From Treponema sp. (lineage in GTDB: Bacteria > Spirochaetota > Spirochaetia > Treponematales > Breznakiellaceae), in assembly GCA_009784975.1 (NCBI GenBank), contig WQXG01000021.1:1-43651 (forward strand): a DNA stretch of 43,651 nt, written 5' to 3'. The stretch's first letter is position 1; each line of letters opens with the position of its first letter. The position numbers and the translations under genes were made by a program. Below, one piece after another: positions 1,366 to 38,443 of the stretch. The notes below the pieces were generated by a model that did not search any database, was not told the origin of the DNA, and was given only the letters and a program-made list of their open reading frames with translations.

Positions 1366-1455
1366 TACCACGAACCACACGAACAGACACGAACGAGATT
1401 AAAAATAAAAAAAACCTAATTCTTCCGTTCGTGTTGGTTCGTGTGGTTCGTGGTA
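1366..1455. repeat. Dispersed ACCACGAACC palindrome, intergenic copy
   Basis: The left arm is 1366-1394 and the right arm 1427-1455. The arms are near-perfect reverse complements (ACCACGAACCACACGAAC facing GTTCGTGTGGTTCGTGGT) around an A-rich loop of about 32 bases. It fills the gap between the second signal peptidase gene and hemW, so any readthrough RNA would carry a long hairpin. Related copies are at 22003-22110 and 24265-24377, with a half copy at 12602-12631. Confidence 0.9.
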
Positions 1456-17349: not shown

Positions 17350-17421
17350 GGCCCCTTCGTCTATCGGTTAGGACATGAGATTCTCAATCTTAAAAGAGGA
17401 GTTCGATTCTCCTAGGGGCTA
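17350..17421 (+). tRNA. tRNA-Glu (anticodon CTC)
   Basis: Full cloverleaf. The acceptor GGCCCCT pairs with AGGGGCT with one G-T wobble. The D arm is TCGTCTATCGGTTAGGA, the anticodon stem TGAGA/TCTTA carries loop TTCTCAA, and the T arm is GAGGAGTTCGATTCTCC. The loop gives CTC, reading GAG. CCA is not encoded. Confidence 0.93.
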
Positions 17422-17453
17422 TTGTTTTAAAAGTGTTAGAGCAAATGGCTCTC

Positions 17454-17606
17454 CGTACAGGCGCTTGCGTCAGCGGGCTCAGAAAAAACCCCAAGCATCC
17501 CTTGGATGCAGGAGCCTGCTTCTGAGCCTCTCGCTTCGCTCGGTCTCGCCAGCAGAGAATTTCGGAAGATGTTTTTTCTGATCCCGCTGCCGCAAGCGCC
17601 TGTACG
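17454..17606. repeat. Large structured palindrome, copy 1
   Basis: The arms 17454-17489 and 17571-17606 pair over 36 bp with two mismatches, the outer 16 bp being perfect (CGTACAGGCGCTTGCG). The 81-base centre contains an apical stem: CTGCT (17516-17520) with AGCAG (17551-17555), and GAGCC (17524-17528) with GGTCTC (17542-17547). It also holds the unpaired motif TTCGGAAGATG leading into GTTTTTTCTG. It starts 33 bases after the tRNA-Glu 3' end. Copies with different but still self-pairing arms are at 17784-17946 and 37928-38063. No protein is encoded. Confidence 0.88.
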
Positions 17607-17712
17607 ACATGTCTTTATCACTAACAATTTTAACAAAGATAGTAGCTGCCATCACTAGATCCCGCAGCCCGCCACGCCTGTACGATATGTCTTTATCACT
17701 AACAATTTTAAA
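17580..17712. repeat. Direct repeat: right arm and flank of palindrome copy 1 duplicated
   Basis: The 55 bases 17580-17634 recur at 17658-17712 with few changes. Both begin GATCCCGC, contain CGCCTGTACGA and end in ATGTCTTTATCACTAACA then ATTTTAA. The second copy looks like a solitary right end of the palindrome plus its flank. The left flank before 17454 weakly mirrors it, so the true element may be longer than its strong arms. Confidence 0.8.
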
Positions 17713-17783
17713 CTAAGGTAGTAAGCAACCTATCCCCCTACTCTGCCATATCGGTATAACGTTTTATATAAAATCGTTTTTTT

Positions 17784-17946
17784 TGTACAGGCTGGGCGGG
17801 GGCAGCGTGCTGTGGGGCTGCGGGCAGGGAAAACAATTTTTGCAGCTCCCTGCGAAAGAGACCGCTTGCGGGCTCTGTAGCAGATTCCGGCAAATGTTTT
17901 CCATGCACGCAGACCCGCGGCACGCTGCCCCCGCCCTGCCTGTACA
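17784..17946. repeat. Large structured palindrome, copy 2
   Basis: The arms 17784-17834 and 17896-17946 pair over 51 bp with six mismatches; both ends are TGTACAGGC. The 61-base centre has CTGC/GCAG (17850-17853 with 17880-17883), AGAG/CTCT (17857-17860 with 17873-17876) and CCGC-TT-GCGG at the tip, followed by the motif ATTCCGGCAAATGTTTT. It lies 50 bp upstream of the spiro-SPASM gene. Together with copy 1 it accounts for most of the 575-base gene-free stretch 17422-17996; I see no small gene there. Confidence 0.88.
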
Positions 17947-17996
17947 GAGAGCAATAGCTTTTATATCACCTGCTTTTATACCGATAATAGAAAGGT

Positions 17997-19532
17997 ATGA
18001 ATGCTTTACTAATCCTATACGCCGGTTCCCTGTCAGAATACGCGTTTTTGCCTGTTTTTAACGAAAAAAACTCCGTTTCTCTTGCACTTGAACAGGCTAA
18101 AAAGTTCCCGGGAACGGAAAAAACCGTTTTATTTGCCGGGCAAGGTGATTTTTCCTTTTTAAATGGGGCGGAAATTGAGCAAAGAGACAAATGGACAAAA
18201 CGAAGCGTGCTCGAAAGGATATCGGAACTTCAGACGGGGTTTGATGTTATCTATTTTGCCTGGGCCGATTGCCCTTTTCTTGACCCTGAACTTGCGGGAG
18301 CTTTGGCAAAAAGACATTTTGAAAACAAAGCAGAGTATTCCTATGCCGACGGTTATCCTTACGGATTGGCGCCGGAAATACTTTCTGCGGGAACTGCCGG
18401 AATCCTGGCAAAAATAATGGGCGAAGACGGGAATGTCGAAAGAGACCTGTTGTTTTCTGTAATACAAAAAGATATAAATGCCTTTGATATCGAAGCGGAA
18501 ATATCAAATGTTGATTTACGCTGCCACAGAATTAATCTTAACGCAGACACAAAACGAAATCTTATGTTGATTAAAAACTTTCTGGCAGTCTGCGCAAAAA
18601 TTCCAACAGCGGCAGAAGCGGAAAAAACAGCTGTTGAACAACCGCAGGTTTTAAGAACATTGCCTGCATTTTATCCTGTTCAGGTTTACGGCGGCTGTGC
18701 TTGCCGCTGCAAAATTTGCCCCTACCCTCTTTATAAAGATACGGCAGAATGTAAAGATTATATGGATATCGAAAATTTTAAATTGCTGCTGGATAAAATC
18801 ATTTCTTTTTCGCATGATGCTGTAATAGATCTTTCGCTTTGGGGAGAAATAAGCCTGCATCCGCAGAAAATGATGTTGATAGAAGAAGTGCTAAAAAGAG
18901 ACTCTCTTGCGCTTATTATCGAAACATCCGGGCTTGGCTGGAAAAATGAAGAGCTGGAAAAAGTTTTAATATTATCGGATAAAAAAACACATACGCATAG
19001 TTTGCCGCCTGTTTCATGGATAGTTTCACTTGATACAGCAGATCCTCAACAGTACATGGCTCTTCGCGGCAGCGGTTTTGCGCAGGCGGATGCTTTTGCG
19101 AAAAAATTGTTTTCCATGTTTCCCAAAGACAGTTATGTGCAGGCAGTTCGTGTTAAGGGATCGGAAGAAGATACGGAAAAATTTTACCGTTACTGGAAAG
19201 AATTTACAAAAAACGAAAACAATATTATTATTCAAAAATACGATGATTTCTGCGGTGTGCTGGAAAAGAAACAGGCTTCTGATATATCGCCTGTTATCAG
19301 GCAAAGCTGCTGGCATATAATGAGAGATATGCCTGTTTTATTAAACGGTGATGTGCCGCAGTGCAGGGAAGATTTATCTGCGTTAAAAGGCGGAAAACTT
19401 TTGGGAAATGCTTTTAATGACACTCTGGAAAACATCTGGCTTAACGGAGAAAGCAATTTTAAAGAACAATGCAAAAATAATTACATTGGGATATGCGCGG
19501 AGTGCGATGAATATTATACCTACAACTTTTAA
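17997..19532 (+). CDS. Radical SAM/SPASM protein with nucleotidyltransferase-like N-terminus (spiro-SPASM type)
   Basis: A 511-residue two-part protein. The N-terminal ~200 residues look like a GT-A/nucleotidyltransferase fold (ILYAGSLSEYAFLPVFNEKNSVSLAL and later FDVIYFAWADCPFLDPELAGAL). The second part is a radical SAM enzyme with C-x3-C-x2-C in VYGGCACRCKICPYP. It ends in a SPASM-like auxiliary cluster region (QSCWHIM, VPQCRED, EQCKNNYIGICAECDEYY). This matches what I recall of the spirochaete-restricted spiro-SPASM family; its substrate is unknown to me. It opens the packed gene run leading to flaA. The start ATG has AGAAAGG unusually close, so the exact start is less certain. Confidence 0.82.
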   Translation: MNALLILYAGSLSEYAFLPVFNEKNSVSLALEQAKKFPGTEKTVLFAGQGDFSFLNGAEIEQRDKWTKRSVLERISELQTGFDVIYFAWADCPFLDPELAGALAKRHFENKAEYSYADGYPYGLAPEILSAGTAGILAKIMGEDGNVERDLLFSVIQKDINAFDIEAEISNVDLRCHRINLNADTKRNLMLIKNFLAVCAKIPTAAEAEKTAVEQPQVLRTLPAFYPVQVYGGCACRCKICPYPLYKDTAECKDYMDIENFKLLLDKIISFSHDAVIDLSLWGEISLHPQKMMLIEEVLKRDSLALIIETSGLGWKNEELEKVLILSDKKTHTHSLPPVSWIVSLDTADPQQYMALRGSGFAQADAFAKKLFSMFPKDSYVQAVRVKGSEEDTEKFYRYWKEFTKNENNIIIQKYDDFCGVLEKKQASDISPVIRQSCWHIMRDMPVLLNGDVPQCREDLSALKGGKLLGNAFNDTLENIWLNGESNFKEQCKNNYIGICAECDEYYTYNF

Positions 19533-20482: not shown

Positions 20483-21157
20483 ATGACAGGTATTGTTTTA
20501 CAGGCTCGCCTTGATTCTTCAAGATTGCCAAAAAAAGCTTTGCTTCCGCTGGACGGAGAGCCGCTTGTTCTGCGCGTAATGGAAGCATTAAATCATACCA
20601 TTGCGGATTTACGCATTTTGGCATGCCCCAAAGATTCATTTTCTGTTTTTAAACCACTTGCAGAGCAGGCAGGTTTTCATATCCTTGCAGGTTCAAAAGA
20701 GGATGTTCTTGAACGTTTCTGCGATGTAATCCGTCATTTTTCACTTACGCGTGTCATAAGAGCAACCGGCGATAATCCCTTTGTTTTTACAGATGCCGCT
20801 TCCATGATAAACCGGGAAGCGATAGACATAAATGCCGATTATGCCGGTTACACATCTCTTCCTTACGGAGCCGGCGTTGAGGCAGTGTCCGCTTCTGCTC
20901 TTCTTGGCGCCGTTACAGCGCAGCCTTATGAACGCGAACATGTCTGTCCTGTTCTATATAATAACCCTGAAAAATATCGTCTTCACCGCCCTTTGGCGCC
21001 CATAAAATGGCAAAACCCTGATATCCGCCTCACCGTTGATACGCGGGAAGATTATGAAAAAGCAAAACTTCTTTACAATGCCCTTAAAAATGATCACGAT
21101 CGTTTCCTTGGCGCCGCTATAATTAACAAATATAAACAGCTAAATCACGGAGGATAA
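20483..21157 (+). CDS. SpsF-like cytidylyltransferase-family protein
   Basis: A 224-residue nucleotidyltransferase resembling SpsF (spore coat polysaccharide protein F) and acylneuraminate cytidylyltransferases. It has the N-terminal signature IVLQARLDSSRLPKKAL (IxQARxxSxRLPGK), LILACPKDS-type strand, RATGDNPF with the metal-binding Asp, and RLTVDTREDYE. In such families it activates a sugar with CTP or another NTP. It starts one base after the upstream stop and is followed one base later by the next gene, so it is part of one operon. Confidence 0.87.
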   Translation: MTGIVLQARLDSSRLPKKALLPLDGEPLVLRVMEALNHTIADLRILACPKDSFSVFKPLAEQAGFHILAGSKEDVLERFCDVIRHFSLTRVIRATGDNPFVFTDAASMINREAIDINADYAGYTSLPYGAGVEAVSASALLGAVTAQPYEREHVCPVLYNNPEKYRLHRPLAPIKWQNPDIRLTVDTREDYEKAKLLYNALKNDHDRFLGAAIINKYKQLNHGG

Positions 21158-21158
21158 C

Positions 21159-22985
21159 ATGGCTTCTGTAATAATAATTCCTGCAGCCGAACAGGGACGG
21201 GGCGGAGGACATTTATGCAGATGTATTAATCTTGTCTGTAATTTGCGCGCGCTTGGCACAGAAGCATATCTTTTGATACCTAAAACTTCGCAATTTGACA
21301 ATCTTTTTAATTCAATGGATTTTAATCCCGATTTTTGCATTAATGATTTGGAAAACAGAAAAATAAAATTCTTTATTCTGGATCGATTTCAGACTCCGCC
21401 TGATGAGCTTTTACATTACAAAAAAACAGCGCCTGTTATAGGAATTGATGAAGGCGGCGTTTCTCGCTTTGATTTTGATTTTCTTATTGATATTCTTGTT
21501 CCCCCAAAAATGTGCTATCCTTGCGCAAATGTTTTTTCCCCTGCTTTACAATTTAATCCTTCTGTAAATCAGCGTGTAAAAAACAACAATTTAAAAATCC
21601 TAATAAGCTTCGGACAGGAGGACTCTCATGGGCTTGGGCTGTTAAATGCTTATAAACTTTCCGCGGTAAAAAACAAATATAATCTGGATATTACCTTTTT
21701 AAAGGGCGTATTGTCAAAAAGCCAGATACCGTTAACATTAAAAAATGTTAAAATACTTGATACTATTCCCAATCTTGCGCGGTATTTACACGAATACGAT
21801 CTTGTTATTACTCATTACGGCATAACAGCATACGAAGCGCTATTCGCGGGAACAACTGTCCTTTTAGCGCACCCTACCCCATACCACAAAAAACTCGCAA
21901 AAGCCGCCGGTTTTAAAAATATGTCTATGGGTCATTTAAAACAAATTCACAAGAGATTTACCACGAACCACGAACAAGAGATTTACCAGAAACAAGAGAT
22001 TTACCACGAACCACACGAACACACACGAACGAAAACAAAACATCCTATTAATGTTCGTGATGGTTCGTGTGGTTCGTGGTTAAAATCTAAAGATGATTCT
22101 GGTTCGTGGTCAAATAATTCTCTTGCCTCCCTTTTAAACAATTATTCACCGCAGGTAAACAGGTACTGCCCTGTTTGCGGTGAGGAAAAATCAGGCAATG
22201 TATCACGTTTTCATGACCGCACTTACCGCCGATGCGTCAAATGCGGTATAATTTACATGGACAGAACCAATACGCCGCCTTTTGAATACAATAAAGAATA
22301 TTTCTTTGAACAATATAAAAAACAATACGGCAAAACATACCTTGAAGATTTTATAAATATAAAGAAAAACTCAAAACACCGCCTTAAAAATATAAAATCT
22401 CTTCTTAAAACACAGGATACACAACTTCTTGATATCGGCTGCGCTTATGGTCCGTTTCTTGACGCGGCACGTGAAGAAGGATTTTCCCCCAAAGGAATTG
22501 ACCCCGCAGAGGATGCTGTCCGTTATGTGCAGCAGGAACTTAATATCCCCTGCCATCACGGCTTTTTCCCGAATTCATCAATTGCAGAGAATAAATTTGA
22601 CGTAATAACTCTTTGGTTCGTAATCGAACATTTTACCGATTGCGCCTCAGTATTATCAGAAATACATAAACTCTTAAAACCCAAAGGCATCCTTGCCTTT
22701 TGCACACCGTCATTTTCCGGTATAAGCGGAAAAACCAGCCTGAACAGATTCCTCTTTGCAAGTCCCGCCGATCATTACACTATTTGGTCACCCAAAACAG
22801 CCGTAAAAGCGCTTACTCTTGCAGGTTTTAAAGTTTTAAAAATAAAAGTAACAGGTCACCATCCCAAACGTTTTACGGTATTGGCAAAAAGCAAAATAAG
22901 CCCGTTATATTGGCTGCTTTTGGCAATCAGCAAATTGTTCAGGTTAGGTGACGCTTTTGAAATATACGCGCAAAAAGAGAGATAA
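21159..22985 (+). CDS. SpsG/PseG-like domain fused to a zinc-ribbon methyltransferase
   Basis: A 608-residue fusion. Residues 1 to ~262 resemble SpsG/PseG nucleotide-sugar hydrolases and glycosyltransferases (AEQGRGGGHLCRCINLVCNLRALGTEAYLL, LVITHYGITAYEALFAGTTVLL). Residues ~335-365 hold a zinc ribbon (CPVCG and CVKCG). Residues ~420-560 are a class I SAM methyltransferase (LLDIGCAYGPFLDAA, FDVITLWFVIEHF), the layout of C-methyltransferase and Methyltransf_23 proteins acting on sugars. Between the domains, at about residues 263-318, an ACCACGAACC palindrome is read through in frame, so the linker is repeat DNA. The AGGAGGAT ribosome binding site overlaps the end of the upstream gene. Confidence 0.85.
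   Translation: MASVIIIPAAEQGRGGGHLCRCINLVCNLRALGTEAYLLIPKTSQFDNLFNSMDFNPDFCINDLENRKIKFFILDRFQTPPDELLHYKKTAPVIGIDEGGVSRFDFDFLIDILVPPKMCYPCANVFSPALQFNPSVNQRVKNNNLKILISFGQEDSHGLGLLNAYKLSAVKNKYNLDITFLKGVLSKSQIPLTLKNVKILDTIPNLARYLHEYDLVITHYGITAYEALFAGTTVLLAHPTPYHKKLAKAAGFKNMSMGHLKQIHKRFTTNHEQEIYQKQEIYHEPHEHTRTKTKHPINVRDGSCGSWLKSKDDSGSWSNNSLASLLNNYSPQVNRYCPVCGEEKSGNVSRFHDRTYRRCVKCGIIYMDRTNTPPFEYNKEYFFEQYKKQYGKTYLEDFINIKKNSKHRLKNIKSLLKTQDTQLLDIGCAYGPFLDAAREEGFSPKGIDPAEDAVRYVQQELNIPCHHGFFPNSSIAENKFDVITLWFVIEHFTDCASVLSEIHKLLKPKGILAFCTPSFSGISGKTSLNRFLFASPADHYTIWSPKTAVKALTLAGFKVLKIKVTGHHPKRFTVLAKSKISPLYWLLLAISKLFRLGDAFEIYAQKER
21951..22110. repeat. ACCACGAACC palindrome inside the SpsG/methyltransferase gene
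   Basis: Three copies of an AAGAGATTTACCA unit (21951-22006) lead into a hairpin with arms 22003-22030 and 22053-22080, pairing 25 of 28 bases. An extension to 22110 follows (AAATCTAAAGATGATTCTGG then TTCGTGGT). The 64 bases 22047-22110 match 24314-24377 in the next gene with two differences. The insert adds roughly 50 residues and preserves the frame. Confidence 0.92.

Positions 22986-37718: not shown

Positions 37719-38443
<725 letters not shown>

Follow-up and report, generated by a model that had tools for sequence, protein, structure and literature searches.

Palindromes with diverging yet self-complementary arms in one treponeme family: a possible non-coding mobile DNA element

Fold-back MITEs such as ERIC, bcr1, YPAL and NEMIS are described, in the excerpts of two reports on which we draw, as non-coding, multicopy, intergenic sequences of about 100-200 bp that each form one long stem-loop (PMC2267715, PMC3733652), and the ends of GTAG REPs, in an excerpt of the second report, often provide the stop codon of the adjoining ORF (PMC3733652). 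Template switching can both create and repair stems, as argued for RNA genes in the portion of a third report drawn on here (PMC8794818). The palindromes analysed in this study lie in a window of 43,651 nucleotides, which is contig C21 of a 2.60-Mb draft Treponema sp. genome (G000) in 73 contigs, and in related genomes. Like the fold-back MITEs, as those excerpts portray them, they are non-coding, multicopy and intergenic and fold as single long stem-loops; like the REP/BIME sequences of RAYT (Y1) transposases, as far as the same excerpts describe these, they are palindromic, intergenic and close to gene 3′ ends. Unlike the fold-back MITEs, their arms diverge within and between genomes yet stay self-complementary (a property measured in the treponeme copies only, not in ERIC and its counterparts), their loops are kept across genera, and no target duplication was found; unlike REPs, they are far longer than 20-40 bp and no GTAG or CGTC tag was seen at the foot of the stem. 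We propose, with confidence that is evenly balanced, that they are copies of a mobile, non-coding element of DNA, some 150-230 bp long and present in one treponeme family, whose arms are homogenised by template switching.

An inverted-repeat search located three large palindromes in the window (Table 1). The initial annotation had assigned copy 1 arms of 36 bp with two mismatches, and this was borne out (94% over 36 nt). It had also held that the three copies share a core, which they do, but the core of copy 2 is on the minus strand; its earlier plus-strand alignment followed the quasi-symmetry of the palindrome. Folding z-scores were -10.1, -12.6 and -10.8 for copies 1, 2 and 3, with 0/200 shuffles as good in each case, and these scores, together with the matched-arm permutations described below, rule out a chance origin. 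Copies 1 and 2 sit between tRNA-Glu and the gene at 17997, and copy 3 falls within the tail of a truncated gene for a PLP enzyme. In that gene (37907-38443, minus strand), residues 8-82 match the first 71 of the 381 positions of PF01053 (Cys/Met PLP enzyme), after which the frame stays open through copy 3. Inverted repeats of a different kind, TACCACGAACCACACGAAC..., occur at window positions 1366-1455 and 21995-22088, where they are 93% and 83% complementary, respectively.

Table 1. Palindrome copies, their parts and a neighbouring tRNA gene in the window
Feature	Position	Strand	Details
Copy 1, whole palindrome including outer AT-rich arms	17427..17633	+	inverted arms, fold, model match
Copy 1 GC-rich arms	17454-17489/17571-17606		36 nt, 94% matching as reverse complements, 2 mismatches
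Copy 1 arms with outer flanks	17427-17489/17571-17633		63 nt, 81%
Copy 1 core	17481-17579	+	model match 17503-17579; start moved by hand to 17481 (nested hairpin)
Lone second right end	17658..17698	+	41 nt, 88% to copy 1 right end
Copy 2	17765..17965	-	arms 17765-17838/17892-17965, 74 nt, 78%
Copy 2 core	17827-17903	-	core model match, 51.2 bits
Copy 3 (subfamily B arms)	37918..38073	+	arms 37918-37962/38029-38073, 45 nt, 89%
Copy 3 core	37954-38037	+	core model match, 99.7 bits
tRNA-Glu, neighbour outside element	17350..17421	+	just upstream of copy 1

Every copy forms a single long hairpin, the conserved core of which retains particular unpaired loops. The outermost parts are AT-rich arms that carry short end boxes, followed inwards by GC-rich arms and an AAAAAC/GTTTTT stem; next come ARAU, a bulge of 4 nt on the 3′ strand, and a 7-bp stem that pairs poorly in subfamily A. 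Beyond this stem, a 4x4 loop (near GAAN/NGAA) and then a 3x3 loop (near UNC/UNC) lie on either side of a 5-bp stem, and the apex is a GAG/CTC stem with a constant C.U mismatch. Some copies have extra hairpins (GCATCC/GGATGC and CAGAGTTTACTCTG), and some of those in G000, G033 and G026 an additional apical module, TGACCAC...GTGGTCA. Most core loops are retained in the family's other genera, where arms and some stems are different; the cores of G087 and G278 are without the GAG/CTC stem.

Copies are dispersed, intergenic and patchily distributed between species. Searching with the DNA of copy 1 gave 109 matches in G000, with partial and reverse ones counted, and matches in 5 of 59 genomes, the source genome included. 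A covariance model, the means of collecting copies named in the initial annotation, was built from 14 cores of the source and four other genomes (R1; 84 positions, 26 pairs) and applied to the genus at a cut-off of E 0.001. It matched at least 74 times in G000 and in at least 20 of the 39 genus genomes, with at least 44 matches in G059, 38 in G026, 15 each in G008 and G001, 10 in G007 and 1-8 in the others; at most 116-150 candidates were scored per genome (15 in the order-wide search), and these counts may therefore be low. Across the order, under stricter filters, at least 19 of 291 genomes matched, from 5 of 82 genera, all of the same family. The core pattern was also found by pattern search in three Treponema MAG assemblies, which, on our reading of their isolate names, come from termite guts, and the exact pattern occurred in 0 stretches of a virus collection. 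Cores cluster by genome on a tree with few resolved forks (31 label changes versus 55.4 shuffled, 0/200 as low), a pattern that points to probable amplification within lineages. Read in core orientation, the cores of subfamilies A and C have common flanks. Loci L092 (G026 C58) and L094 (G060 C104) hold one identical stretch in two genomes, down to its genes and elements, possibly through assembly cross-contamination. Among open-licence literature, no paper was found on palindromic intergenic inverted repeats of termite Treponema or on transposable elements in metagenome-assembled genomes of termite-gut Treponema, and none of the Treponema papers on miniature inverted-repeat elements concerned this palindrome family, judged by title.

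Pairing is kept in these hairpins while sequence changes. When 14 cores were aligned with MAFFT, their covariation score was 0.355, against 0.155 when shuffled and at most 0.114 when slid. In 108 distinct cores, the alignment of which was fitted to the model and so leans towards it, the score rose to 0.416 (shuffled 0.169, slid no more than 0.132), and 448 cells showed changes on both sides of a pair. Matched arms scored well above mismatched arms in G000 (23.0 vs 10.4; n = 51 of the 74 model matches), G026 (22.4 vs 7.4; n = 21), G059 (20.7 vs 9.5; n = 12) and a set of one copy per genome (15.1 vs 6.6; n = 14), with 0/2000 permutations reaching the observed value in each. The same test was weak in G008 (56/2000) and G033 (48/2000) and null in G061 (1174/2000), where the arms are near-identical (n = 5 in each genome). 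The compensating changes that the initial annotation had seen in the inner stem thus hold at both sample sizes, and its view that pairing, not sequence, is selected or copied gains support from arms that fit their own partners in G000, G026 and G059 and from the large number of compensated changes. It had also proposed that the structural claim would fail if most arms were identical repeats or if covariation were at the level of chance: the first condition holds in part, as many copies within a subfamily have almost identical arms and the matched-arm test is null in G061, and covariation lies above both the shuffled and the slid controls.

According to our preferred explanation, the DNA itself would keep the two arms alike: in the course of replication or repair, the nascent strand would switch to the other arm and copy it, such that a change in one arm would appear in both arms in a single step. 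Such a switch would explain why double changes are many and wobble intermediates few. The arms of subfamily A (25 elements nearest to an A arm, two of them from G033, with 22 distinct arm pairs) hold 25 compensated changes versus 8 G.T and 6 A.C, along with 28 other mismatches, 18 of which are at one constant C.T position. The switch would also explain the arrangement at locus L015, where the final codons of an aminotransferase-like gene form the left outer arm and the right flank repeats these codons in inverted orientation. The protein ends alike in most of the 15 readable orthologues, yet the element lies behind the gene in only 2 of 20 loci (in the source genome and G059), so either the inverted copy was gained or a hairpin was already present before the insertion. 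The flanks of subfamilies A and C (n = 38-39) pair in a copy-specific manner at 0-25 and 20-45 nt outside the GC-rich arms (0/5000 permutations each), and farther out the permutation counts were 481/5000 at 30-60, 209 at 40-80 and 2147 at 60-100 nt; this test kept L111, which is misplaced through a nested copy. Outer-flank pairing was absent from subfamily B (n = 11; 272, 4783 and 2328 of 5000 permutations). Alternatively, flank pairing in subfamily A could reflect insertion into older hairpins.

It has long been asked how the two sides of a stem can both change without an intermediate in which pairing is broken. Since double changes in subfamily A outnumber both G.T and A.C single changes, this palindrome family, with at least 74 matches in G000 and more in its relatives, makes one-step copying from arm to arm testable. 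It also carries a caution, namely that covariation by itself is no proof of a functional RNA.

Selection on a transcript is nonetheless an explanation to be weighed: the palindromes might be a structured RNA or a 3′-UTR element (a terminator or mRNA stabiliser) whose stems covary for the sake of RNA folding, which we consider unlikely. Conserved loops and strong covariation agree with it, as does the frequency of G.U at two core pairs beside the loops (45 and 33 of 108 rows), but the arms change completely between copies and 19 of the 39 genus genomes are without the element at the cut-off used. The balance of mispairs also bears on this reading. The model search of the window and 87 of 118 loci gave 122 matches, of which 94 elements were retained once matches on the opposite strand, overlaps, partial matches and repeated loci had been removed and the bounds of copy 1 redrawn by hand; their arms and outer flanks comprise 3604 Watson-Crick, 118 G.T and 161 A.C pairs, 548 pairs of other kinds and 178 gaps. 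Within the inner arms of stems at least 75% paired, the core strand has 28 G.T (1.4%) and 71 A.C among 2035 pairs (p 2e-5, a value that is too small because the copies are related), while tRNA acceptor stems from the same loci (n = 11) have 10 G.T among 77 pairs (13%). Because G.T on the core strand is rare and not in excess of A.C, the arm pairing looks DNA-like, and "copied" fits better than "selected as RNA". If the opposite strand is read, the 71 pairs become G.T (about 3.5% of the 2035) and G.T is the commoner of the two, so that this strand could be the one folding, as RNA or DNA. Compared with Rfam 15 at the gathering score, the window contained two tRNAs only and no known family at the palindromes, and seven loci of relatives contained nothing at that score, with 25 of their 26 sub-threshold matches being to microRNA fold-backs; a known structured RNA family was rejected on these grounds.

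Placement next to genes is also part of the RNA reading. With the 94 elements read in core orientation, 21 of the 93 usable left ends have a stop codon no more than 60 nt from the core (one of them, at L040, spurious, as it lies in a duplicated arm) and 0 have a start codon; among right ends, 3 of 92 have a stop codon. Within 150 nt the left side has 39 stops and 23 starts and the right side 22 stops and 2 starts, so genes of both directions are nearer on the left, an asymmetry to which additional repeat sequence on the right may contribute. Copies 2 and 3 of the window are exceptions to the trend, not being behind gene 3′ ends in core orientation, which counts against a 3′-UTR role. The 36 elements of G000 with genes on both sides lie between 20 tandem, 10 convergent and 6 divergent pairs (25, 4 and 4 for gene pairs of the window).

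Since identity across the genus is only about 65-76% for the gene next to copies 1 and 2, which prevented alignment of DNA borders for empty sites, two orthologous gene ends were compared instead. The first was the aminotransferase-like gene described above; the second, the map gene, ends at the element's edge in G000, and a model match was present in 1 of 30 map loci (0 in the other 29). The model search spanned all 50 gene-end loci, some of which end soon behind the gene, and ends were readable at 15 of 20 aminotransferase and about 12 of 30 map loci, minus-strand loci not being turned. Occupied and empty gene ends (2/20 and 1/30), together with dispersion and patchiness, support the initial suggestion that the palindromes are mobile. 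Its proposed comparison of occupied and empty sites was thus answered in part: gene ends differ between orthologues, but joined flanks of 50 elements gave 0 spanning matches to the collected loci and hence no empty site, and no insertion difference was seen between strains.

Equally unlikely, in our estimate, is that the palindromes are ordinary MITEs, that is, deletion derivatives of a cut-and-paste transposon whose long TIRs are homogenised by template switching and whose loops are inherited and unused. Their size, copy number, intergenic place and inverted ends agree with this, the usual description of a MITE being 70-300 bp, non-coding, with inverted ends and multicopy, as the element is. 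However, a direct-repeat test for target-site duplication gave no signal in either subfamily A (n = 38-39) or subfamily B (n = 11), whose ends are not exactly mapped, and core loops are retained between genera. In the loci analysed, lone copy-1 arms in G000 adjoin elements and do not flank a transposase gene, and no autonomous transposon with the same ends was seen, the draft genome being broken at repeats. RAYT/REP identity was rejected on size, tag and distribution: Y1 transposase genes occur in 17 of 39 genomes, many of them incomplete, and do not track the elements (10/20 genomes with elements, 7/19 without; Fisher p 0.52). The element resembles fold-back MITEs in the way it works and REPs in its placement, yet it departs from a defining feature of each: no target duplication was found, as a MITE would have, and size, tag and RAYT distribution do not fit a REP. 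No mobilising enzyme was found among the Y1 and integron-integrase families in the 39 genomes. Different hairpins with GGGGACAGAGCT lie near the Y1 genes of G026 and G007 (L143 1626-1767; L144 51-125 and 2591-2753) and are perhaps the REPs of RAYT-like genes there.

Pure homogenisation would also remove the loops, yet these persist, which argues that the core shape is used. Under the template-switching explanation, the loops would persist because a putative enzyme recognises the folded DNA and moves the element, the weakest step of the proposal. A bolder version, to which we assign somewhat less credence than to the RNA and MITE explanations, would make the palindromes DNA elements of a new class, mobilised in the form of a folded hairpin: the putative enzyme would read the 4x4 purine-rich loop, the 3x3 loop and the 4-nt bulge and not the sequence, elements would be placed in a preferred orientation behind gene 3′ ends, toxin-antitoxin and Rpn genes would be carried between two copies, and template switching would allow the arms to drift freely while the shape stays. 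If such a shape-reading enzyme exists, it would be another structure-reading system beside integron integrases and Y1 transposases.

Integron attC sites end in RYYYAAC...GTTRRRY boxes, and a related idea, which we regard as very improbable, is that the palindromes are attC-like recombination sites that move toxin-antitoxin and Rpn genes as cassettes. Like attC in its general layout, the element has a structure kept more than its sequence, lies at gene 3′ ends and sometimes surrounds toxin-antitoxin genes. Elements on the same strand, spaced about 0.8-1.7 kb from one another, enclose toxin-antitoxin-like or Rpn-like genes in G061 (three elements around a 177-aa ORF and a ParE/Phd pair), G008 (two around HEPN and nucleotidyltransferase genes, with the same two families likewise in G000 C6), G019, G059 and G000, with Rpn (PF04754) between element pairs in G019, G059 C88 and G000 C39. 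Other gaps between elements hold genes without a Pfam match (G000 C47, G026 C58). Of the 15 PF12784/PF04754 genes in G000, 8 have an element no more than 500 bp away (p 8e-8 against a rough estimate of 4.5%), a link that may be inflated by the location of both elements and Rpn genes at contig ends; the corresponding counts are 2/8 in G059 and 1/11 in G019. Unlike attC, the element has its conserved part at the apex, and its end boxes (GTT...AAC; GTGTTA...TAACA(A/C) in subfamily A) have the opposite order. Identity with integron attC was rejected, as an integron integrase exceeded the cut-off in 0 of 39 genomes, although 0 of 14 control genomes passed that cut-off either, so that the sensitivity of the search is not shown.

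Several elements are accompanied by partial or repeated copies of their own parts. At L023 (G000 C13, about 20,800-21,300), two lone right halves, each preceded by a TTCCATTGTGGA repeat, lie in tandem beside a full copy, and at L028, L032, L033, L025, L027 and L105 the left arm and its flank are tandemly repeated before the element in units of about 65 bp. A short palindrome, GGTAGCAGCTACC, recurs near the right ends of several G000 elements, for example at L011, L025 and L107.
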